Position numbers and translations under genes: made by a program. From Gemmatimonadaceae bacterium (GTDB taxonomy: Bacteria; Gemmatimonadota; Gemmatimonadetes; Gemmatimonadales; Gemmatimonadaceae), in contig JACCRF010000012.1 in the NCBI GenBank assembly GCA_013813715.1, forward strand, positions 1 to 45,420: a stretch of DNA of 45,420 nucleotides. The letters are read 5' to 3'. Positions within the stretch are counted from its first letter, which is position 1. Each line of letters opens with the position of its first letter. Positions 20,143 to 45,217 of the stretch are shown in pieces. Below the pieces are notes generated by a model that had not been told where the DNA came from, did not search any database, and saw nothing but the letters and a program-made list of their open reading frames with translations.

Positions 20143-21546
20143 TCACTGCTGCGGCGGACGGGCCGAGTAGTTCTCGAAGCGCGTAAACGTCTTGTTGAAG
20201 TAGAGGTTGACGAGTCCGGTCGGGCCGTTGCGCTGTTTTCCGACGATGATTTCCGCCCGCCCCTCGAGGGAGTTGCCGTCCTTGTCAGTGGGACCATCGT
20301 ACATCTCCTGGCGGTAGATGAACATCACCAGGTCGGCGTCCTGCTCGATTGCGCCCGACTCCCGGAGGTCGGAAAGCTGGGGGCGTTTGTGCTCGGCCGC
20401 TCTCTGCTCGGGAGCACGGGATAGCTGAGACAATGCGACCACGGGTACTCGCAGCTCGCGGGCAAGCGACTTGAGCGACCGCGAGATGTAGCTGATCTCC
20501 TGCTGCCGGCTTTCCGGATTACCCGGCCCCTGCATGAGCTGGAGATAGTCCACCACGACAAGGCCAATGTTGTTGTCCACCTTCAACCGCCTCGCCTTCG
20601 ATCGCATCTCGAGCAGCGTGATGCCAGGCGTGTCGTCGATCCAGATGGGAGCGTGACTCAGAATGCCGGCGGCGCGGCCGAGGCGAACGAACTCGTCGTC
20701 GTGGAGCCTGCCCTTCCGCAGGCGCTGCGCGTCGACTCTGCCTTCGGAGGTCAGGAGCCGCTGCACGAGCTGCTCCTTGCTCATTTCGAGCGAGAAAATC
20801 GCGACTGGCACGTTTCCGTCGAGTGCGGCGTTCTGCGCGATGTTGAGGACGAAAGCCGTCTTTCCCATCGAGGGCCGTGCAGCGATGATGATGAGGTCGG
20901 ACTGCTGGAATCCGGCAGTGATCTCGTCGAGATCCTTGAACCCGCTGGCGACCCCGGTGACGGATTCACCGCCGCGCTGGAGCAGCTCGATCCGCTCCAT
21001 CGTCGGCCAGAGCAGCTCCTTGATTCGCATGAATCCTTCGGCGCCGCGGCTCTGATTTACCTCGAAGATCTTGTGCTCGGCCGCGTCGAGCAGCTCGGCC
21101 GCGGGCGCGGCCGACTCGAACGCCTCGGAAACAATCGCTGTCGAGACCTCGATCAGCCGGCGGCGAAGCGCCTTTTCACGGACGATCCTTGCGTGGTATT
21201 CGACATTCGCCGACGTCGGAACAGCGTCGACGAGAAAAGCTATGTAGTCCTTGCCACCGCTTGCCTGAAGATCGCCCGTCCGCCCCAGCTCTTCAGCGAG
21301 GGTGAGCGGATCAATGACGTCTCCTTTCTCATTGAGCGCGAACATCGCCCGGAAGATCCGGCGGTTCCCCTCGCGGTAGAACATCGTGTCGTCCACATGC
21401 TCGGCGGCACGCAGCACCGCGTCGGCATCCATAAGCATCGCGGACAGCACGGCCTGCTCGGCGTCCTCCGAGTATGGAGGACGCCGCTCCGAATACGGAT
21501 CACGCGACGGCGGCGCTATCGAGAATTCTACGGGCGAGCTGGACAT
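20143..21546 (-). CDS. dnaB: Replicative DNA helicase DnaB
   Basis: DnaB is the hexameric fork helicase. The protein is 467 residues: an N-terminal primase-docking domain (about 25-130), a linker, and a RecA-like motor. Walker A is ARPSMGKTAF, Walker B is LVVVDYLQLM, and the C-terminal arginine/loop motifs appear in SQLSRAPEQR and DLRESGAIEQDAD. The start at 21546 overlaps the end of the uracil-DNA glycosylase gene by 47 bp. The N-terminal domain is closely similar to that of the mobile-element protein at 42671-44125. Confidence 0.96.
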   Translation of the reverse strand: MSSSPVEFSIAPPSRDPYSERRPPYSEDAEQAVLSAMLMDADAVLRAAEHVDDTMFYREGNRRIFRAMFALNEKGDVIDPLTLAEELGRTGDLQASGGKDYIAFLVDAVPTSANVEYHARIVREKALRRRLIEVSTAIVSEAFESAAPAAELLDAAEHKIFEVNQSRGAEGFMRIKELLWPTMERIELLQRGGESVTGVASGFKDLDEITAGFQQSDLIIIAARPSMGKTAFVLNIAQNAALDGNVPVAIFSLEMSKEQLVQRLLTSEGRVDAQRLRKGRLHDDEFVRLGRAAGILSHAPIWIDDTPGITLLEMRSKARRLKVDNNIGLVVVDYLQLMQGPGNPESRQQEISYISRSLKSLARELRVPVVALSQLSRAPEQRAAEHKRPQLSDLRESGAIEQDADLVMFIYRQEMYDGPTDKDGNSLEGRAEIIVGKQRNGPTGLVNLYFNKTFTRFENYSARPPQQ

Positions 21547-31853: not shown

Positions 31854-34421
31854 TCAGCCTGCGCCCGTCACAAGATCCCGAAATCTCCCATCCGCCTTAA
31901 GCGTTCTCCACCACCACGACTGGCTCTTGGCGAAATGATCGCGGTGAGCGGGATTCGTCGAGAGGTACTGGCGCAGCAGCCGGAACGCCTCGGCGGTGTC
32001 ATCCGGAGTGGCAAATAGTGTCCGTACGAACGCTTCGAAAGTAATGAGGTTGCCCTCAGGGTCAACCTTTCCGTCCGCCCGTACGCTCACGAGCAGGCTG
32101 CGGGCACTGTCTTTCTGGCCAGCACGTGCCAGCGCCGCTGCAACGAGGATGGACGCCTCACGCCGCTCATAGTCCCACGTTTTCGGCTGGGAGACCGCCT
32201 TGAGCCTCTCGTAATCGCGCCATGCCTCCGCGATGTTCGGCGGCCGCGCGTCGGTCGTCAGCAGCCAAAGACGACACCGCACAAACAGCGGATTCGCCGG
32301 GAAGCGCCGCCCGCCTTCGTCGCACCATTTCAGTGCGTCGGGAAACTGCTCGAGATCGTATGAGGTCACATACAGTCGCCACAGCAGCGCATCGGTTCCC
32401 GTCAGATAAGCATCCTCTTCGTATGCCTTGCTGGCGGCGAGCTTTGCGCCAATGAAGTCGTCCTTCTGGTTATAGATCTGGCTGAGCTGGCTCCAAGCCT
32501 CGGCGCTGGTCGGCTCGATCTCGACTGCCGCCTTGAGATCCCTTTCGGCGGCGCTCAGAATCTCGGTCGCCTGACGCGGCGTTGTGTAAAGCGCGAATGC
32601 CCACTGTCGATACCGGAGCCTGCCGCGCATTGACAGCGCGGCAGCGCTACGATTGTCGCGCGCCAGAGCACGATCCGCGTGCGCGATCCCCTCCTCGAGA
32701 AGCGGCTTGGCCTCGATTGGTCCTCTGGCGGCGGCGGCACGCGAGAGGGAGACTCTCGCACGGTCGGCAATCGGTTCGACCCACCGACTGTCGAGTCTCT
32801 CCGCCTGAGCCAGCAGCGAGTCCGCGAGCAGGAAGCTCTTCCGGCTCGAGACACTATCACCCTGCCTGGCCTGCGATTCAGCGTCGCGCCTTACCTTGGC
32901 CGCGCGCTGAAGGGCCGTCCATGCTGCCACGTTCGACGTCCCTGACCTGGCGTCGCGCAGCTTGATCTCTTCGCCGACTCTCGCCCGGAGGAAGTTCGCA
33001 ACTTCAGTCGCGAGCGCGTCACGCACTGCGAAGACATCTCCCTTGGACTGCTCGAAACTCTTCCGGTTGAGGTCGGCTCCCGTGTTACCGTCGACCAGGC
33101 GCACCGACACCCGAAGTTTGTCGCCCTCCTCCTCGATTGTGCCGCGGACGAGCGTTCCGGCACTGAGCTCGCGCGCGATGCTGTCAACGTCGGCTTCACC
33201 GCCGCGGTACTTTGAAACTCCGCCTCTGGACACGACGTCGAGAGCCTGCACCTGAGCCAGCCGGTCGATGAGGCTCTCAGTGAGCCCGTCGGCCATATAC
33301 CCGAGCGTTCCGCCAGGGCTCACGTCGTCGAAGTAGAGCACGGCCACTCTGGCCGGGCTCATCCCGCCCGTATCCGCCGAGGCAGCCGACGGACGCCCCC
33401 AGACGCGCCAACCCAGGCCAGCCGCCGCGATTAGTACGAAAGCAGCCGCTATTCCGAACACTCGCTTGTTGCGCCATCGGGACACTGGAACGTCTACAAA
33501 GCGCGGAACGGCGCGGCGCTCGGCGGTGGTTCGCATCGTCGCTCTTCGATCCACCCGCCGCGTCGTCGTGTGGTAGTCGATGACGCACTCCTGAAGCTCC
33601 TGCGCGAACTCGCCGACCGACGCAAATCTGTCAGCCGGAGATTTCGCCAAGGCCCGTTGCACGATGTCCTCGACCTCATCGGGGATCGTGTTCCGAACTA
33701 TTTGCATCGAGGGCACTGCAGCCATCGAATGGCGGGCCATCACGGCTTGCGCATTGGGGCCCGTGAACGGAGGCTGCCCCACCAGCATCTCATAGAGCAC
33801 GCAGGCAAGGCTGTACAGGTCGCTGCGCCCGTCGATTTCCTTGTCAGCGAAGGCCTGCTCAGGGCTCATGTAGGTCGGGGTGCCAAGCGACATGCCGGTT
33901 TGCGTCAGCGCGCCTCCGGCGCTTCCCATGCTGCTCACGGCCCGCGCGATACCAAAATCCGCGACGATCGCGTGACCATCCTCGATGAGGATATTCTCCG
34001 GCTTGATGTCTCGATGGATGACCCCTTTACGGTGAGCGTAGTCGAGGGCGCTGGCCACTTCGCCGCAGATCTTCAGCGCCTGGTCAATCGCGAGCACCTG
34101 TTCGCGGTCGATGCGCTGCCTGAGTGATTCGCCCTCGATGAAGGGCATGACGTAATACAGCAGTCCCTGGGTCTCTCCCGAGTCGTAGAGCGCCAGGATG
34201 TGCGGATGGCTCAGGCTCGTGGCGATGTGGATTTCGCGGCGAAAACGCTCCGCGCCGAGGGCCACGGCGAGGTCTTCATGGAGGACCTTGATCGCAAGGC
34301 GGCGCTCGTGCTTGACGTCTCGAGCAAGGAACACGGTCGCCATGCCGCCCTTTCCAAGCTCGCGCTCGACGTCGTAGCGATCGCTAAGCCCGGCCTTCAA
34401 CTGCTCGAGAAGCTCTGCCAC
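31854..34421 (-). CDS. Membrane Ser/Thr protein kinase with TolB-like and TPR sensor region
   Basis: This is a PknB-type receptor kinase. About 855 residues: a cytoplasmic kinase domain with the glycine loop GKGGMATVF near residue 24, the ATP lysine in AIKVL, the catalytic HRDIKPEN and ADFGIAR. A transmembrane helix (VFGIAAAFVLIAAAGLGW) lies near residue 320. Then comes a TolB-N/FlgO-like domain (VAVLYFDDVSPGGTLGYMAD... RLAQVQALDVVSR) and a helical TPR-rich tail. Such kinases are abundant in Gemmatimonadota. The GTG at 34421 gives the family-like start (VAELLEQLKAGLSDRY); a GTG at 34472 is the alternative. Confidence 0.9.
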   Translation of the reverse strand: MAELLEQLKAGLSDRYDVERELGKGGMATVFLARDVKHERRLAIKVLHEDLAVALGAERFRREIHIATSLSHPHILALYDSGETQGLLYYVMPFIEGESLRQRIDREQVLAIDQALKICGEVASALDYAHRKGVIHRDIKPENILIEDGHAIVADFGIARAVSSMGSAGGALTQTGMSLGTPTYMSPEQAFADKEIDGRSDLYSLACVLYEMLVGQPPFTGPNAQAVMARHSMAAVPSMQIVRNTIPDEVEDIVQRALAKSPADRFASVGEFAQELQECVIDYHTTTRRVDRRATMRTTAERRAVPRFVDVPVSRWRNKRVFGIAAAFVLIAAAGLGWRVWGRPSAASADTGGMSPARVAVLYFDDVSPGGTLGYMADGLTESLIDRLAQVQALDVVSRGGVSKYRGGEADVDSIARELSAGTLVRGTIEEEGDKLRVSVRLVDGNTGADLNRKSFEQSKGDVFAVRDALATEVANFLRARVGEEIKLRDARSGTSNVAAWTALQRAAKVRRDAESQARQGDSVSSRKSFLLADSLLAQAERLDSRWVEPIADRARVSLSRAAAARGPIEAKPLLEEGIAHADRALARDNRSAAALSMRGRLRYRQWAFALYTTPRQATEILSAAERDLKAAVEIEPTSAEAWSQLSQIYNQKDDFIGAKLAASKAYEEDAYLTGTDALLWRLYVTSYDLEQFPDALKWCDEGGRRFPANPLFVRCRLWLLTTDARPPNIAEAWRDYERLKAVSQPKTWDYERREASILVAAALARAGQKDSARSLLVSVRADGKVDPEGNLITFEAFVRTLFATPDDTAEAFRLLRQYLSTNPAHRDHFAKSQSWWWRTLKADGRFRDLVTGAG

Positions 34422-34645
34422 TATAGAGGGTTCGGGGAATTGAACAGATGGAAAGAATACAATCCGGCCCACATTGCCGCCAGCAGAATCAGGCGTGCGA
34501 GAATTCGACGCGCGAGCACGGGCCGGGCGACCGCACAGACTGCCATTTAATCAGCCAGTGCGGTTCTTCGAAGCGCTATTTCTCACCAGGCCCCGCCCGT
34601 CTCCCCGCCAATATTCGCGGCGCTGAGTCGTGCTCGTGTCGCGAC

Positions 34646-36840: not shown

Positions 36841-37475
36841 TCACCGCGCCACGTTGCCGATCCACGCATCGCCGCGATAGTCGCTCGTTACGACGAGAAC
36901 TCGGTTCATATCCTCCGACACGAGGAAGGTCGCAACGGGTCGGGCTGGGCTGCCTATTCGCTGGACCCGTCCTCCGATGCGCGTCCGATAGAACGTCGAA
37001 GTTTCCATCGTGTCGAAAATCCTGATCAGGAGCGATGCATCTTGCAGCCAGAACAGGTCCGCATACTCGGCGAACGTGGTCCAGAGTTGAGTGAAGCGAC
37101 CATCGGCCAACGAAAGCACGCCAATCCCAATTGAGTCTCCAGAAGCGTTCGTACCAGCGAAGGCGATAAAGCGTCCCTCCGGCGACGCCCTCATCCGAAA
37201 AGCGCGGGCATACCAGCGAGGAATCTCAATTTGTTTTGCCGTGGCTCACCATCGCGCTGCACGTTGATCGTGCGACCACCCAGCGGGATCCACGCCCATC
37301 CTAACCCATGGATCCTCGAGGGACTCGTGACGCTCGAGTCAGGTATCGAGAGAACACCGCTTTGCCGCCGGGTTCGATAGTCCAGCAGCGATAGCCGGAC
37401 TCCCGACGCATTTACATCTCTTATGCCCAGCGTGGTTGAATCAACGAACCACGCAGCGTGATGCCGTCCCGGAAC
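36841..37475 (-). pseudogene. Detached PD40 (beta-propeller) tail of the adjacent kinase, two frames
   Basis: Directly behind the kinase stop, the next minus frame reads HHAAWFVDSTTLGIRDVNAS and VRLSLLDYRTRRQSG and continues to about 37240. A third frame then carries KQIEIPRWYARAFRMRASPE into GRFIAFAGTN... and ends at 36841 with ...GDAWIGNVAR. These are successive PD40/WD-like blades that logically continue the kinase at 37421-39427. Each step from one frame to the next equals one missing base (or two extra). Confidence 0.75.
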
Positions 37476-39427
37476 ACTGGTCTCCGCCCCCCTCCGAATG
37501 GCATCACTGAAAGCTGCGAGGTGCCCTCCTCCGGACTTATGTCGCGCCCGAGGAGCATCGCACTTCCGTCAGGTGATAGACTGAGAATGAAGTTGCTCGT
37601 CAAGCGCATAAAACGCTCGTCCTCGGAAAATCTTCCGGTGAGCAGATCGACGAAGCTAAGCGCATAGAAATCATGCTGGACCGTCTGGTCCTCGAACACA
37701 AGCGCGCTTCCGTCGGCTGTTACGCTGATTGCCGTCGGTTTTCCCATGTAAACTGTGTCGCCCCGCTCGGCTAATTGTCCCGTACGCACGTCGAAGGGAA
37801 TGCGAACCACGGCGCCCTGATTCGTCATTCGCGAAACGGTCGAGATAAAGAGAGCATCAGAGCTCGCCGCCCCCCAAGGGACGTCAGGACCTTGGGAAAA
37901 CCGTATTGACGAGTAGTGCTTGCCGCTACGGTCGGATGAGATCCACTCGGTAGTCCGATCGACAGTGAGTGCGTAGACAAGGCGCCGGGAGTTTGGAACT
38001 GATACCAAGCGCGTGATCACGCCTGTGGGGCCTGCTACGCGAATACTATCGATCGGCACGCCATCCAGGCCACTGACGAGAATCCAGGAGGTGGCGGAGG
38101 GAACACTTCCCCGAACCAGCAGCAGAGAATCACCTCCCGCCCAGAACGCAGCCGGCCCATTTGTTCCCAGCTGCCGCGCCGGACCGCCCAGCGTCGACAC
38201 CAGAAACCAGCTGAAAACACCTTTTGTGGATCCGAGGAATAGAATATTTCGCTGGTCGGGGCTCACCTCCAAACTATATAGCGCGGTAGCACCCTCGAGC
38301 AGCCGACGCGACGATCCACCAGCGATGTCCTTCATCTCGATCCCGTATCGGCACCCTCCCGTTCCGCAGTCGGTAACCACGTAGGCGATCATTCTGCCAT
38401 CGTCCGATACATCAGGCAGCCTCACACGGCCATTGTTTGTGATCTGAGTTCGATCGCGAAGCGCAACTATCGAAGGCGCTAACGGGTCGGATTTGCCTTG
38501 AGTGAGCCACACGCTCGTGCCAATCACCGCTACCGCACTAACCGCTATTGCCAACATCATATTTCTGGATGCGGAGAGTGGGCTCTGACGCTCGCGGGCG
38601 CCCGCAGACAGCGCTCGCGCAAACTCGCCCGCAGAGCCGAATCGGTCAGCCGGTGTCTTCGCCAGAGCCTTCGCTGTCGCCTGCTCCATCGCGAGTGGAA
38701 TCGTCTCTCTCACGACCCGGAGCTTGATCGGGTTTTGCGTGAGCAGCTTCGCGATGATCGCCTGCGCGGAAGGACCAGTCACCGGCGGCTCCCCCGCCAT
38801 CATCTCGTAGAACACCGCGGCAAGAGAATACACATCGCTCCGGCGATCGACCCCACGGTCGCCCATCGCCTGCTCGGGACTCATGTACTTCGGAGTGCCT
38901 AGTGGCAATCCCATTTCCGTCAGGCGGTCACCGCCGCCTTCCTTGACCGCGAGCGCGATACCGAAATCGGCGAGCACGGCCTCACCCTGGTGCAGCAGGA
39001 TGTTCTCGGGCTTGACGTCGCGGTGCACCACTCCCTGACCGTGCGCGCAATCGAGGGCGCTCGCCACCTGCGTGATAATCGAGAGCGCATCCTGCACCTC
39101 GAGCTGGTTCTCCCTTTCCAGCTTCGCTCTCAGCGACTCTCCCCGAACGTAGGGCAGCACATAGTAAAGAATGCCATCGGCCGATCCTGAATCGATCAGC
39201 GTCAGGATGTGGGGATGGTCTAGCTTTGCCGCGATGCGAACTTCGGAGAGAAACCGCTCAGTGCCGATCACTGCGCTCAAATCGGCGCGGAGCACCTTCA
39301 ACGCGACTTCGCGGTCGTGCTTCAGATCGCGAGCGAGGTACACCGTAGCCATCCCGCCGACACCGATCTGTCGTTCTATCTGATACCGGCCTGCCATCGA
39401 TGTACGGAGCCTATCGAGAACACTCAA
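37421..39427 (-). CDS. Membrane Ser/Thr protein kinase with PD40 sensor region (apparently frameshift-truncated)
   Basis: This is a PknB-type kinase of 668 residues as it stands. The glycine loop GVGGMATVY, the ATP lysine K44 in ALKVL, HRDVKPEN and ADFGIAL are intact. A transmembrane helix (NMMLAIAVSAVAVIGTSVWL) lies near residue 300, followed by PD40-type blades (LPDVSDDGRMIAYV, LEVSPDQRNILFLG, ISVTADGSALVFED, LSLSPDGSAMLLGR). The present C-terminus (ITLRGSLIQPRWA) looks out of frame, and the missing blades continue downstream. The kinase part could still work. The TTG start has GGAG 7 bp before it. Confidence 0.85.
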   Translation of the reverse strand: MSVLDRLRTSMAGRYQIERQIGVGGMATVYLARDLKHDREVALKVLRADLSAVIGTERFLSEVRIAAKLDHPHILTLIDSGSADGILYYVLPYVRGESLRAKLERENQLEVQDALSIITQVASALDCAHGQGVVHRDVKPENILLHQGEAVLADFGIALAVKEGGGDRLTEMGLPLGTPKYMSPEQAMGDRGVDRRSDVYSLAAVFYEMMAGEPPVTGPSAQAIIAKLLTQNPIKLRVVRETIPLAMEQATAKALAKTPADRFGSAGEFARALSAGARERQSPLSASRNMMLAIAVSAVAVIGTSVWLTQGKSDPLAPSIVALRDRTQITNNGRVRLPDVSDDGRMIAYVVTDCGTGGCRYGIEMKDIAGGSSRRLLEGATALYSLEVSPDQRNILFLGSTKGVFSWFLVSTLGGPARQLGTNGPAAFWAGGDSLLLVRGSVPSATSWILVSGLDGVPIDSIRVAGPTGVITRLVSVPNSRRLVYALTVDRTTEWISSDRSGKHYSSIRFSQGPDVPWGAASSDALFISTVSRMTNQGAVVRIPFDVRTGQLAERGDTVYMGKPTAISVTADGSALVFEDQTVQHDFYALSFVDLLTGRFSEDERFMRLTSNFILSLSPDGSAMLLGRDISPEEGTSQLSVMPFGGGRRPVFRDGITLRGSLIQPRWA

Positions 39428-40080: not shown

Positions 40081-41250
40081 CTACTTCGCTATGAAGAGCG
40101 GAGCTAGTTGCTCTTCCACGAGCGCGCGCAGATGCTCAGGCACCATGTGCGTGTAAGCCATAGTCGTCGCGAGATCTGCGTGACCGAGGGCTTCCTTCAC
40201 GTGCACGACGTTCTTGCCCTCAGCGAGCCATGTCGTCACGCGACGGTGACGCAAATCGTGGCGACGGAATCCTGCCGGCACCTTAGCCGTGGCGGCCGCA
40301 TTCTCGAATGAACGCCGGATGGAGCGAATTTGTTGCCCGGCGATCGCGCTCCTGGTGGTGATCACGTGGTGGAATACGAAAGGAGAGCGGCCGGTATCAT
40401 AGACCGCCATCCGGAACGTTGCTGCGTGCTCCTGTAGGGCTGCCCTGAGCCGTGACGTCAGCGGAATGAACCGAGACTTACCGCTCTTCGTCCTTCGCCC
40501 TGGCGCGCTCTTGACGTGCAGGAACCCCGTCGCGAGGTCCACATCCTCCCATCGCAGCTGCAGCGCCTCGCTATCAGCCCGAACGCCCGTCTCTGCCAGC
40601 AGCAGGATGTACAGACTGAGCATCGGGTTGGCCTCTGCCGCTTTCAGGAGCGCTTCCAGCTCGCCGCTCGAGAGAATAGGGGTGTCGCGCTTGTCCGCCT
40701 TCGGCGCCGTCACCCGCGCACACGGGTTGGCCTCGAGGAAGTCCTTGTCAACAGCGTAGTTGAAGAGCCGGTGCAGGACGCGCCGATCGCGCGCAACGGT
40801 GTGCGCGCTGACGCCGGCCGCGAGCGCGTCCGTTCCCGCGGTGAGACCGCCGAAGCGGATCGATCGTCGCCACTGAATGAAAGTCTTCACGACCCCGCGC
40901 TGAATGTCGCGCACGAAGGGATCGCCGAGCTTGTCGACGAAGAACACCTTGAACGCCCCGAGGCTGCTCCGGTAGGATTGCACGGCGCCAGCTGAGAGTC
41001 CGGGGAGCTCGTATGTCTTGAAATCTTCGATCAGGGCGGAAAAACGAATCGGAGCCGGCAAGCCGGCCTCGGCACGACCATGATCACGCGACAACTCTGC
41101 GTGCTTTACTGTCGCGAAGTTCTGCGCTTCGACCTTCGTGCCGGGCACCGTGAAGGAGTGATAAGTACCCCCGACGCAGAGGCGAACGCGCCAGGTAGCT
41201 GCTCGCTTCGTGATGCTGCCTGGGTAAGACTTCGTTCTCTTCCGTGGCAT
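40081..41250 (-). CDS. int: Tyrosine recombinase/integrase
   Basis: This phage-type integrase catalyses site-specific insertion and excision of the element. The protein is 389 residues from the ATG at 41250. It has an N-terminal arm-binding region, a SAM-like core-binding domain (about 70-170) and the catalytic domain. The active-site residues are R224 (TGVRADSEAL), K255 or K258 in the beta-hairpin, H331 and R334 (HDLRH), H357 (LGHAD) and the nucleophile Y366 (AYTHM). It lies next to the tRNA-Leu remnant and starts two bases after the repressor-like gene stops, so both share one message. Confidence 0.95.
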   Translation of the reverse strand: MPRKRTKSYPGSITKRAATWRVRLCVGGTYHSFTVPGTKVEAQNFATVKHAELSRDHGRAEAGLPAPIRFSALIEDFKTYELPGLSAGAVQSYRSSLGAFKVFFVDKLGDPFVRDIQRGVVKTFIQWRRSIRFGGLTAGTDALAAGVSAHTVARDRRVLHRLFNYAVDKDFLEANPCARVTAPKADKRDTPILSSGELEALLKAAEANPMLSLYILLLAETGVRADSEALQLRWEDVDLATGFLHVKSAPGRRTKSGKSRFIPLTSRLRAALQEHAATFRMAVYDTGRSPFVFHHVITTRSAIAGQQIRSIRRSFENAAATAKVPAGFRRHDLRHRRVTTWLAEGKNVVHVKEALGHADLATTMAYTHMVPEHLRALVEEQLAPLFIAK

Positions 41251-41252
41251 AG

Positions 41253-42065
41253 TCACATCCCTTTTCGTGAACGTGGAGTGTTGCTTCGTTGCTTCGAGCC
41301 CTTCGGACGTGCCCTGCTGCGCCTGGGTATGCATTCGACCATCTCCTGCCCGGCGCCGAGAGTCATGTCGGGCTGTTGCCTGCGTTGCTCCGCTTCGATC
41401 GCGAGAAGCACCGGGACCATCGCCGTTATGTAGTCGCCGAGCGTGTCGCCCTCCATCCGGTTTGGATCTACACGAAACACGTCGAGAGGACCCTTTAGAG
41501 CCGCGCCAATATCACGCTCGATGTGCGGATCGATATACGAGCTTCCTGGAAGGTCTCCGCGTGGGTCACGCATCCCAAGCAGGTCTCGAACGTTATAAGT
41601 ACCGCCGAGCACGAGGCGGAGTCGTACCTCGCCAAGAGGTGCGACCCAGTGCGGGATGAGCGATTCCGGTGAACGCCACCATTGGACGTCTTCGGTGGAT
41701 TGCGGTACCCGCATGAACTGGAAAATGGTGTGTAACAGGCGCGCGGCACTTTCACGCTTCCAGTCTGCCCCTCGAGGGGCCGCGCCGGACGAAACCGCCG
41801 CTGCTTCGGCATGTGCGGGGGTCGGATGCCCGATCTCGAACGCCAGCCATTCAGGATTCAACTCGAGAACCTGAGCGGCCGCAGACGTGAATTCTGAGGG
41901 GGGTGTAGCGCCGGCCAGGTAGCGATGGATCATGGCGCGCGTGCTTCCCTTGGGCCGCGGCCGGCGCTTTAACATTTCTGCGGCAAACGAACGAATGCTC
42001 ATCGTTTTGTCCGGCCCGTCGCCCACATACATGCCGAGCCGCTCGCCGATCGTCCTGTCCACCAT
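41253..42065 (-). CDS. Repressor-like helix-turn-helix protein of the element
   Basis: The protein is 270 residues. Its first 75 residues resemble a Cro/CI-type helix-turn-helix (SIRSFAAEMLKR... STRAMIHRYLAGATPPSEFTSAAAQVLELNPEWLAFE). No LexA-type peptidase motif is evident in the rest. The C-terminus is basic. It is read divergently from the element's replication genes, has GGAGG 5 bp before the ATG, and its promoter overlaps two GTATAC boxes, so a lysogeny or excision switch is a reasonable guess. The assignment rests on pattern and position. Confidence 0.65.
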   Translation of the reverse strand: MVDRTIGERLGMYVGDGPDKTMSIRSFAAEMLKRRPRPKGSTRAMIHRYLAGATPPSEFTSAAAQVLELNPEWLAFEIGHPTPAHAEAAAVSSGAAPRGADWKRESAARLLHTIFQFMRVPQSTEDVQWWRSPESLIPHWVAPLGEVRLRLVLGGTYNVRDLLGMRDPRGDLPGSSYIDPHIERDIGAALKGPLDVFRVDPNRMEGDTLGDYITAMVPVLLAIEAEQRRQQPDMTLGAGQEMVECIPRRSRARPKGSKQRSNTPRSRKGM

Positions 42066-42475: not shown

Positions 42476-42674
42476 CAACAGCAAGCATCTCCAGACCGCC
42501 GAAGAGCAACGACGTGACCGGGAGATTGATTCGCTTGTCACGCCCCTGGTGCTGGATTTTTGTCGGCGTAGGCCAGGGAAAGCGCTCGCGGTGCTCCGAT
42601 CGCTGAAAGCGCTTGCAGCCGCGAGATCCGCCCTCCTCAGCCGGCGACGATGCGCGCAGCCACGCTCCGCGTGA
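42444..42674 (+). CDS. Small hypothetical protein upstream of the replication gene
   Basis: There are 76 codons, starting inside the end of the previous gene and ending in a TGA that overlaps a GTG start of the replication protein (GTGA). A central helical part (IDSLVTPLVLDFCRRRPG to KALAVLRSLKALAAARS) looks protein-like. No family is recognised. The chained overlaps are the best evidence that it is translated. Confidence 0.45.
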   Translation: MTRYSSRRSTSNSKHLQTAEEQRRDREIDSLVTPLVLDFCRRRPGKALAVLRSLKALAAARSALLSRRRCAQPRSA

Positions 42675-44125
42675 CGAGTCTCGAGCTGCCGCGGGACCGG
42701 ACTCGGCGCAAATTGGCTGCGTCAGCGGATGGCGTTGCGGACTACGCGCCGATCCACTCCGACGATGCTGAGCAGGCGGTGCTTTGCGCTGTGCTGATGG
42801 ATGACTCTGCAATGGTGGAAGCGTTCGAGATCCTCGATGACTCCATGTTTTTCCGCGAGGCAAACCGGAAGGTTTTCCGTGCGATGCTGGCTCTCAACGC
42901 GCGCGGCGACGCGATCGATCCGCTAACGCTGACTGAAGAGCTGGCCCGACACGGCGAGCTCGAGGCGGTCGGCGGCAAGGATTACATCTGCTCGTGGAGC
43001 GACGCGGTCCCGTCAGCTGCAAACGTCGAGTATCACGCCAAGATCGTCCGCGAAAAAGCGCAGCGCCAGCGCCTCCGTCACCTTGGTGAGCAGCTCGTCC
43101 GCGAGAGCGGTGAGGCGATTTCCCCCGGAGACGCGCTCTCAGCTTATCGCGAGGTGTTCGCCTCCCTGAGTTTCGACGCGCGGGTGACGGATAACTCTTC
43201 CGTCTTTCTTTCCCTTGCGACTCTCCTGAATCGTCCCGAGCTCCTGGTTCCGCCCTCGCCGGTCGTTCCGAGACTCGGCTACAGAGGGCGCGCGACCATC
43301 ATTGCGGCACCCGACAAATCCGGAAAGTCCACAATGCTCGCGACGGCTGCAGCTGAAATATCGAAGCGCGGCCATTTCCTGGGCGCGCCGGTTGGAGCGC
43401 CGACGCGGCGAGTGATATGGGGCGGGCTTGAGGAGGCGCTCGGAGATGCGGTGCGACGGTTTTATGAATTCGGCGCCGTCGCGGACAATATCCACCTTGT
43501 CGTTCTCAAGCGCCCGACCCTCCTCGAGCACATCCGAGCAAAGCAAATCGAGGCGCCTGTCGACCTCGTTATCGTGGACTCCCTCACCGAATACGCGCGA
43601 GTCCTCGGGAAGGTACCGGACGACAGTGACACGAGCGGATGGTCCGCCGTCGTGCGGCCGTTGATCGAGCTGACCAGAGAGTTTCCGGACCTGAGCTTGA
43701 TCGTCGCGCACCACCCGCGGAGAAGTGACGGCGAATACCGCGGGGCAACGGAAATAGCGGCCGCCTTCGATTGCCTCCTCGAAATGCGCAAACCGAAGGA
43801 AGGCGAAGACCCGACGATCCGTCACATAACCGGAAGGGCTCGCTGGCCGGTCGCCGCATTCGACGTCCGACTCCGAGACGGCCGGTACGAGCTCGCCGGC
43901 GGGGGCGAACTGTCACTCGACGCGCGGATCCTCATTCAGATCGAACAACATCGCGGGATTTCCCTCGCTGAACTAAGACGCCTTGTCGGCGGTCGCGGAA
44001 CCGCGGTCGATGACGCTCTCGCCGGCCTCGTTCGTCGCGGCGCCGTGCTCGATCTCGGAGTCGGCGGGAAGCACGCCTACCATCCGGCGGGGACAGAACC
44101 GCCCACACTCGGGCTCCTCCCGTGA
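42671..44125 (+). CDS. Chimeric replication protein: DnaB N-terminal domain fused to a RepA-like ATPase
   Basis: The protein is 484 residues from the GTG at 42671 (491 from an ATG at 42650). Residues about 30-140 are a DnaB N-terminal domain, about two-thirds identical by eye to the host DnaB in this window, sharing DDxMFxREANR, GDxIDPLTL and ANVEYHAxIVREKA. A linker leads to a RecA-fold motor of RepA/AAA_25 type with Walker A APDKSGKST (about 212-221), Walker B VDLVIVDS (about 297-304) and a sensor LIVAHHPRR. The C-terminus looks like a winged helix (ISLAELRRLVGGRGTAVDDAL). The motor is not DnaB-like. It is probably the element's replication helicase or initiator. The segment YICSWSDAVP differs locally from the conserved YIAFLVDAVP. 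Confidence 0.85.
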   Translation: MTSLELPRDRTRRKLAASADGVADYAPIHSDDAEQAVLCAVLMDDSAMVEAFEILDDSMFFREANRKVFRAMLALNARGDAIDPLTLTEELARHGELEAVGGKDYICSWSDAVPSAANVEYHAKIVREKAQRQRLRHLGEQLVRESGEAISPGDALSAYREVFASLSFDARVTDNSSVFLSLATLLNRPELLVPPSPVVPRLGYRGRATIIAAPDKSGKSTMLATAAAEISKRGHFLGAPVGAPTRRVIWGGLEEALGDAVRRFYEFGAVADNIHLVVLKRPTLLEHIRAKQIEAPVDLVIVDSLTEYARVLGKVPDDSDTSGWSAVVRPLIELTREFPDLSLIVAHHPRRSDGEYRGATEIAAAFDCLLEMRKPKEGEDPTIRHITGRARWPVAAFDVRLRDGRYELAGGGELSLDARILIQIEQHRGISLAELRRLVGGRGTAVDDALAGLVRRGAVLDLGVGGKHAYHPAGTEPPTLGLLP

Positions 44126-44149: not shown

Positions 44150-44276
44150 CTTGTCCCGGACCTTGTCCCGCTGACTTTGCCGGTGCCTTGTCCCGAGCGT
44201 CCGTTAATGGCTTGTCCCGCCCTGTCCGCTACCTGTCCCGCGACCTTAACTATGGACAAGCCCATACCTTGTCCCG
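44150..44276 (+). repeat. Iteron-like array of CTTGTCCCG
   Basis: Five exact copies of CTTGTCCCG start at 44150, 44162, 44187, 44211 and 44268. Degenerate copies CCTGTCCG (44221) and CCTGTCCCG (44232) and an inverted GGACAAG (44254) lie among them. Spacings of 12, 25 and 24 bp keep several copies on similar helical faces. The array starts 25 bp after the replication gene, the usual setting of a plasmid- or phage-type origin. Confidence 0.7.
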
Positions 44277-44279
44277 TCT

Positions 44280-44303
44280 CCCCATCCCCTGTAAGGGGTG
44301 GGG
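44280..44303. other. Strong hairpin at the end of the iteron array
   Basis: Arms CCCCATCCCCT and AGGGGTGGGG pair over ten positions with one bulged T around a GTA loop. No T run follows, so it is more likely part of an origin structure than a terminator. The bases up to 44490 show no gene. Confidence 0.5.
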
Positions 44304-44493
44304 ACGGACAGGTGCGAGGTTGAGAGGGGGGGTGCCCGCCCCTGCTTGGCCGCCGTTTCTCACTTTGTGCGCCCGGGCTTCGCAGAAATGTGATGCAACA
44401 CGCCGCGCATCATCGCTTAGCGAGGTAGTCGCAGGGGATTCACAATCCGCTGTGCACCGCCAAGCCATTGCGCTGCAACGCTTTCCCGGTGCC

Positions 44494-44534: not shown

Positions 44535-44954
44535 ATGACCGTCGCTGATCGTCTTCGCGCGATCGTCGGATCGCTCCCGGAAGGCGCCGCCGTCACCCTT
44601 CCCGGCGACGCTCTGCGCGCGTGGCTCGAGGCCGAGTCCGTCGCGCCGCCGGCCCCGGCTGTGATTGAGGCCGAGCCTTCGACTTGGCGCGAGCGGCTGT
44701 GGACGTGTCCTCCCGAGACCCGCCTCGGTGTGCACGAGCTGGCAGAGGCGCTCGACCGATCAGCCGATTTCGTGTATCGCGCCGTCGACGCGAAGTGGAG
44801 CGCGAAGCGCGGCCGGGATCCACTGCCCTGCTCGCGGCTCGACGGCGTGCTTGTCTTCACTGCCGGCGCAATCCGGCGTTGGCTCGAGGCTTCCGCCGTG
44901 ATCGTCAATCCTGAACCGCGTCACGTGCAGCTGCACACAAGGATTCGCGCATGA
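44535..44954 (+). CDS. Helix-turn-helix (excisionase/MerR-like) protein
   Basis: The protein is 139 residues. The N-terminal half is Ala/Glu-rich. The C-terminal half reads LGVHELAEALDRSADFVYRAVDAKW... PCSRLDGVLVFTAGAIRRWLEAS, the pattern of the short winged helix of excisionase and terminase-small-type DNA-binding domains. GGGGG precedes the ATG. Its stop overlaps the next gene as ATGA. Excisionase, replication accessory factor or regulator are all possible. Confidence 0.65.
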   Translation: MTVADRLRAIVGSLPEGAAVTLPGDALRAWLEAESVAPPAPAVIEAEPSTWRERLWTCPPETRLGVHELAEALDRSADFVYRAVDAKWSAKRGRDPLPCSRLDGVLVFTAGAIRRWLEASAVIVNPEPRHVQLHTRIRA

Positions 44955-45217
44955 CGGCCGACTTCGAACGGCTGGCCCGCGCGATACACCTTGACGTTGA
45001 GACAATCGCCAACGGAGACGGCTGGATCGTCACTGGTGGCAGCGGTTCGCATCTCGTGAGCGGGTCCGCCTGCGACTGTATCGATTTCGGCGTGCGAGGT
45101 ACCCCGTGTAAGCACGTGCTCGCGGTGGCGCTTCGACGCGGAGATCCCGACGTCCTCGAGACTCTTCGCCTCTTAGTGCCGCTCCCAAGGCGACGGCGCA
45201 GCCCGAGCGACGCATGA
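44951..45217 (+). CDS. SWIM zinc-finger protein
   Basis: The protein is 88 residues. The SWIM signature CxC-xn-CxH is complete: CDCIDFGVRGTPCKHVLAVALRRGD in the middle of the protein (positions about 41-65). SWIM domains bind DNA or proteins and occur as small stand-alone proteins in phages and mobile elements. It is coupled to both neighbours by ATGA overlaps. Confidence 0.8.
   Translation: MTADFERLARAIHLDVETIANGDGWIVTGGSGSHLVSGSACDCIDFGVRGTPCKHVLAVALRRGDPDVLETLRLLVPLPRRRRSPSDA

Follow-up and report, generated by a model that had tools for sequence, protein, structure and literature searches.

The window analysed here is the whole of contig C51 (45,420 bp) of genome G000, a Gemmatimonadaceae bacterium, and close to its right-hand end a 127-bp array of short repeats followed by a hairpin lies directly behind a gene for a DnaB-type helicase. 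We found that this array and hairpin probably form a replication origin of the phage type, to which the adjacent helicase would bind through its putative DNA-binding tail. The helicase gene stops 24 bp ahead of the first repeat. An earlier note on this DNA had placed the array immediately past a replication gene, and the reading offered there, that of an iteron-type origin, was supported both by the genome-wide count of the repeat and by related elements.

Repeat array and hairpin behind the helicase gene

The array spans 44150-44276, the 127 bp being measured from the first to the last exact copy. Within it we located all the copies previously reported: CTTGTCCCG occurs five times exactly and twice in degenerate form, and a partial copy is present in inverted orientation. 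The features are as follows, G013 being a genome of the same genus that is compared below.

42650-44125, plus strand: candidate initiator-helicase gene, with a DnaB N-terminal domain (amino acids (aa) 35-135), an AAA_25/RecA-like motor (aa 201-359) and a helix-turn-helix (HTH)-like tail (about aa 435-480)
44150-44158, plus strand: iteron 1, exact CTTGTCCCG, conserved in G013
44162-44170, plus strand: iteron 2, exact CTTGTCCCG, conserved in G013
44187-44195, plus strand: iteron 3, exact CTTGTCCCG, differing in G013 at the last base only
44211-44219, plus strand: iteron 4, exact CTTGTCCCG, differing in G013 at the last base only
44221-44229, plus strand: iteron 5, degenerate CCTGTCCGC, TGTCC core kept in G013
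44232-44240, plus strand: iteron 6, CCTGTCCCG, one mismatch
44254-44260, minus strand: inverted partial iteron, GGACAAG on the plus strand
44268-44276, plus strand: iteron 7, exact CTTGTCCCG, its 3' part forming the left arm of the hairpin
44270-44310, plus strand: hairpin, folded as DNA, in which the last iteron pairs with an inverted GGACAGG as the outer stem

By total count the repeat was not enriched, since CTTGTCCCG with at most one mismatch occurred 13 times in the whole window against 13.2 expected. What stood out was clustering: the densest 170 bp held nine TGTCC/GGACA motifs, and the next best place elsewhere in the window held three. The 3.73-Mb genome contained 26 exact copies of CTTGTCCCG, 21 of them outside the array (37 copies for the control word, CTTGTCCCG read backwards), and with five of the 26 packed into 127 bp the 9-mer was not equally dense elsewhere. 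A looser triple pattern found the array as its sole place in the window's genome. When the array region was shuffled 1000 times with its dinucleotides preserved, two shuffles had any 9-mer in five copies, a conservative figure because the array itself sets the dinucleotide composition.

Folded as DNA, the hairpin gave -13.3 kcal/mol (z -2.05), and seven of 200 shuffles folded equally well; the strong hairpin announced in the earlier note is thus of moderate energetic support, and what strengthens it is its conservation in G013. Of 17 pairs compared between the two sequences, 13 were invariant, two were compensated on both sides, one was changed on one side and one was broken. In this alignment 97% of cells were paired, against 50-56% when slid. 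Since there are only two sequences, and 105 of 500 column shuffles did equally well, this conservation is supportive and not decisive.

The protein encoded by 42650-44125 carries a DnaB_N domain and then a RecA-like motor, the arrangement of a DnaB-family replicative helicase, and both matched Pfam above cut-off (PF00772, E 1.2e-28; PF13481, E 2.6e-14); the Pfam domain scan matched no primase domain in it. Residues 29-431 of its model matched full DnaB (2r6e, Z 23.9) with a root-mean-square deviation of 17.3 over 339 residues, so that the domains match while their arrangement is loose. In the tail, helices were modelled at 439-445 and 451-462 with low confidence, and an HTH was weakly predicted. 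Because the same contig carries a second DnaB-type gene (20143-21546, minus strand), taken as the cell's own dnaB, the helicase next to the array most likely belongs to an inserted element.

Conservation of the array in the nearest relative

We searched 199 genomes with the window helicase protein, and G013 was the only other one with a near full-length relative, the remaining listed matches covering mainly the N-terminal part of DnaB. Scans of viral and genome contigs with the single protein gave no relatives of the window helicase, and a scan with a two-sequence profile gave mostly DnaB N-terminal matches. The two proteins share about 61-63% identity, and their C-terminal 100 residues are more alike, at 73%. 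In G013 the repeats are placed after the conserved end of the protein with the spacing of the window, 12, 25, 24, 10, 11 and 36 (or 11+25). No single helical phase fits this series, so that the near-helical spacing described earlier is a loose description, although the spacing itself is exactly conserved. Over the 127 bp the two genomes align without a gap, with 59 of 64 repeat columns identical and 23 of 63 spacer columns.

The reading frame of the G013 helicase continues through the array to give a 583-aa protein, as it would if the array were a coding or low-complexity repeat with no role at the DNA level. In the window the helicase frame stops ahead of the array, which argues for selection on the DNA and not on the protein; moreover, conservation tracks the repeat positions and their exact spacing instead of codons, and the two elements have different frames here. 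We therefore regard a coding repeat as extremely improbable, the least probable of the explanations considered.

The G013 helicase and array lie in an integrated element of 15.9 kb at a tRNA-Ser gene (G013:C8:81923-97850), a phage-like insertion bounded by a 51-bp direct repeat. The direct repeat is perfect, stands at 81954 and 97800 and overlaps the 3' part of the tRNA gene. Besides helicase and array the element contains a small terminase (TerS), an S78 prohead protease and a tape-measure protein. The frame at 82647-84041 (minus strand) occupies the integrase position and was called integrase from its place alone, and a Phage_integrase gene identified by scanning (97950-99167) is situated immediately beyond the right repeat. 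Among the element proteins scanned there was no match to a large terminase. The G013 element has the appearance of a degraded prophage or of a possible phage satellite.

Because the window shares helicase and array with G013 and has its own integrase, its element would likewise be a phage or satellite and not a plasmid. The contig seems to break off within the element, before phage structural genes. In the window's genome the S78 prohead protease of G013 had no match, and its tape-measure protein matched in part at another place (E 5.8e-13).

Similar layouts with other words in related genes and in phages

Searching 288 genomes of the window's order with the motor-plus-tail part of the window protein yielded 14 loci, 12 of them assessable, since L575 gave no tblastn hit and L580 was too short. 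Past the end of homology, a repeated 7-mer matched in none of 200 shuffles was found at six of the 12, and the words were CTTGTCC in the window, CTTGCCC in L569, CGGAACC in L571, CGGTTCC in L572, AGTGCGC in L573 and CCCGTCC in L574. Weaker signals came from L577 (1/200 shuffles), L579 (4/200), G013 (14/200, with degenerate copies) and L576 (19/200), and controls placed inside genes gave 107-200 of 200 shuffles. Repeats at the same place in related elements are thus present both in G013 and in relatives across the order, which agrees with the reading of the earlier note. L579 (G000:C131) is itself a second, distant helicase relative in the window's genome, with the word GGGAACC/GGTTCCC within its 3' end. 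At L004, L137, L574 and L579 the array falls within the reading frame of the gene, where it encodes a protein tail of low complexity.

The layout extends to phages. Fifty viral loci were fetched by similarity to the PrimPol-AAA_25 family, with seeds that came mostly from array-bearing loci, and 49 of them (L544, lacking a stop, was dropped) formed 31 protein clusters. In a motif-blind test, 25 of the 31 clusters had a downstream array (0/100 shuffles), and none of the 31 had one in the stretch taken as control, which lay 700-1300 bp upstream. Among ten named phages, five had an array directly past the gene, namely 16-3 and RHph_X2_25 (both CGTGACA), CGphi29 (GGGGACA), 1N2-2 (CGGTACA) and CRP-406 (GCTGGAA). 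In phage ctyzp037 a dense TGTCCC/GGGACA cluster was seen about 1.5 kb past the repA-like gene, over short genes (L512 4993-5254).

Starting from the word in place of the protein, we scanned viral contigs for TGTCCCG triples and scored their neighbours with a helicase hidden Markov model (HMM) built from nine seeds, control loci being pooled from two reversed-word scans. Among the matches listed, an AAA_25-like frame ended within 1 kb in 31 of 80 loci, against one of 143 control loci, and 28 of those 31 arrays occupied both strands. L125 and L128 are HMM seeds, and when they are set aside the independent figure becomes 29 of 78. Some forward matches (L127, L131, L162, L168 and L174) resembled pentapeptide-repeat genes by eye, and the reversed-word matches showed even spacings resembling coding repeats, also by eye. 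Pairs of CTTGTCCCG were found in 51 stretches and pairs of the reversed word in 68, so that raw pair counts are no evidence; AAA_25 matched in 11 of the 51, seven of the 11 being themselves seeds.

Of the neighbours of ten pair-set loci, seven were AAA_25 proteins, joined to Prim-Pol (four), to DnaB_N (one) or to neither (two), and the rest were a Zn_Ribbon_Prim/Toprim protein, an HTH protein and one without a match. Ten neighbours of arrays without AAA_25 comprised three VapE proteins, one D5-type primase-helicase, one MarR/DnaT-like protein and five without a match. Given AAA_25, VapE, D5-type and MarR/DnaT-like neighbours, the TGTCCC word family is present next to several types of replication protein. 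Loci at which TGTCCC arrays stand next to VapE, D5-type primase-helicase or DnaT-like genes are L258, L269, L308, L312 and L287. The window's array exemplifies a widespread layout, in which the word changes from element to element.

Several results weigh against an origin of this kind. Six of the 31 phage clusters had no downstream array, five of the ten named phages (KYD2, Acadian, RW, Ariel and ctyzp037) had none directly past the gene, and among the 12 assessable order loci L570 and L578 had none after the helicase gene. In addition, perfect-stem hairpins at 0/20 shuffles were present in just 17 of 31 regions, by a weak test, and the window and G013 both failed that test at 3/20 shuffles each.

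The array is flanked by genes of like orientation, a position that would also suit an autoregulatory operator, at which the helicase or an HTH protein controls the next genes, with the hairpin as terminator of the helicase transcript, and in some relatives, such as 16-3 and L128, the hairpin is indeed followed by a T run. The hairpin of the window has a T run on neither side, arrays inside the gene's own frame (G013, L137 and L574) would be an odd site for an operator, and many elements unrelated to one another have such repeats behind a replication gene, mostly on both strands. Considering these points, we judge an operator with terminator to be unlikely.

Coupling between the word and the C-terminal tail

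Coupling was tested on the C-terminal 50 residues of 17 proteins of the L135/16-3 family, to which the window protein does not belong. Mean C-terminal identity was 0.60 in pairs sharing a word (31 pairs) and 0.35 in pairs with different words (105 pairs), and at a helicase identity of 0.8-0.9 the corresponding values were 0.61 (18 pairs) and 0.35 (42 pairs). With helicase identity regressed out, the difference was 0.22, a value reached by one of 20,000 label permutations; this controls for relatedness only in part. In this family, then, word and C-terminal winged helix change together, and the helicase part stays alike.

The C-terminal domain of the family was predicted as helix, strand, helix, long helix and two strands, the order of a winged helix, with high confidence (predicted local distance difference test score of about 90 from residue 41). 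Its best structural matches included the winged-helix domains of the origin recognition complex (ORC) and Cdc6 (Z 8.2-8.3). Because a Foldseek search by itself returned nothing at E ≤0.001, this is support at the level of the fold only. An FxR residue in the presumed recognition helix followed the word (GGGACA 8/8, GTGACA 2/2, CAGACA 2/2); as a simple recognition code FxR was rejected, as other words share it. The window C-terminus, whose tail is poorly modelled, had no profile match to the winged helix of the L135 family. By eye, the tail of L569, STAVDRALADLCSRGA, resembles that of the window, GTAVDDALAGLVRRGA, and the word of L569 is one base off the window's.

That the word tracks the helicase C-terminus in this 17-protein family also speaks against a packaging or partition site (pac/cos or parS-like), which a terminase or a partition protein would read. 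The small terminase gene of the G013 element, about 1.2 kb downstream of its array, would fit such a site. Past the arrays of 16-3 and RHph_X2_25, the annotated genes include nucleases and, in the stretch examined, no terminase, and no partition gene was matched among the scanned right-end genes of the window. We consider a packaging or partition site highly improbable.

Proposed mechanism and comparison with known systems

If the array and hairpin act as an origin, the helicase tail would bind the CTTGTCCCG words, as has been proposed for the Rep protein of the Staphylococcus aureus pathogenicity islands (SaPI), Cch2, P4 alpha and pRN1. The helicase could then assemble on the fixed array, open the duplex and load as a ring helicase. 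The N-terminal domain of host DnaB contacts primase, and the DnaB-type N-terminal domain of the window protein may recruit host primase likewise. The hairpin might be exposed as a single-strand site for priming or assembly, like the ssi sites of RSF1010 or the stem-loop of pRN1, or might merely end transcription. The integrase would excise the element, which could then replicate outside the chromosome as a circle.

Binding by Cch2, of the staphylococcal cassette chromosome mec (SCCmec), requires direct repeats past its gene (PMC7581432); SaPI Rep and Cch2 are helicases of the DUF927 or D5/Primase_Cterm types (PMC7581432), whereas the window protein is DnaB_N plus AAA_25. In plasmid pRN1 (ORF904) and phage BIP-1 the origin region is found 3' of the replication gene, as the candidate origin of the window is, and includes a stem-loop; the replication protein there ends in a winged helix (PMC4234260). 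However, pRN1 has no iterons and an SF3 helicase, whereas the window has prominent iterons and a RecA-like motor. P4 alpha is a single winged-helix protein that binds origin repeats and then unwinds and primes (PMC4234260), but with a Toprim-type primase, whereas the window protein has no matched primase domain. The oriV of the IncQ plasmid RSF1010 has iterons and hairpins exposed by a helicase, served by RepC, RepA and RepB' with ssiA/ssiB (PMC4234260); unlike the window it uses three separate proteins, and a sequence search with the window protein, in which a relation to RSF1010 RepA was looked for, matched DnaB-type chains only (E up to 0.01).

In the Vibrio phage-inducible chromosomal island-like element (PLE), the DNA-binding domain of RepA covaries with the origin and the rest is conserved (PMC8263062). 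That system has a RepA_N initiator and semi-palindromic iterons of about 30 bp, its C-terminal domain is hypothesised to recruit the replisome, and the accessible part of the source mentions no helicase motor (PMC8263062).

The principle is therefore already known from SaPI, SCCmec and P4, and covariation of domain and origin from PLE. In the open-licence literature we found no published account of a RecA-fold version or of the AAA_25 layout with interchangeable words, and motif strings returned unspecific matches only. We see roughly even chances that these loci represent a large group of origins of phages and satellites that has apparently escaped description. In such a group a replicative helicase of the RecA fold (DnaB- or RepA-like) would carry its own interchangeable winged-helix reader and dock on both-strand words of 7-9 bp at its gene's 3' end. 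The helicase, its specificity domain and the origin would then travel as one cassette, the word being changed by tail swap or mutation, and a DnaB-type helicase would load without a separate initiator or loader.

Host DnaB needs an initiator and a loader. If the class is real, a DnaB-type ring helicase would find and load at an origin by itself, sequence alone would suffice to find the origins of many phages and satellites that have not been cultured, just past the AAA_25 gene, and the paired changes of word and winged helix would supply natural data for working out a DNA-recognition code.

Other genes of the element and its surroundings

On either side of the helicase gene and array, the element contains the following genes.

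40081-41334, minus strand: tyrosine recombinase (integrase) on the element side (Phage_integrase, E 3.3e-22; phrog_1, E 4.2e-57)
44535-44954, plus strand: small protein, the first gene past the array, with a weak HTH_17 match below the curated cut-off
44951-45217, plus strand: SWIM zinc-finger protein, the next gene (PF04434, E 1.9e-7)

Adjoining the element are two large serine/threonine kinase genes (31854-34472 and 37421-39427). A short frame at 34646-35209 matches only positions 893-1020 of the 1021 of the AcrB/AcrD/AcrF model and is perhaps a remnant.
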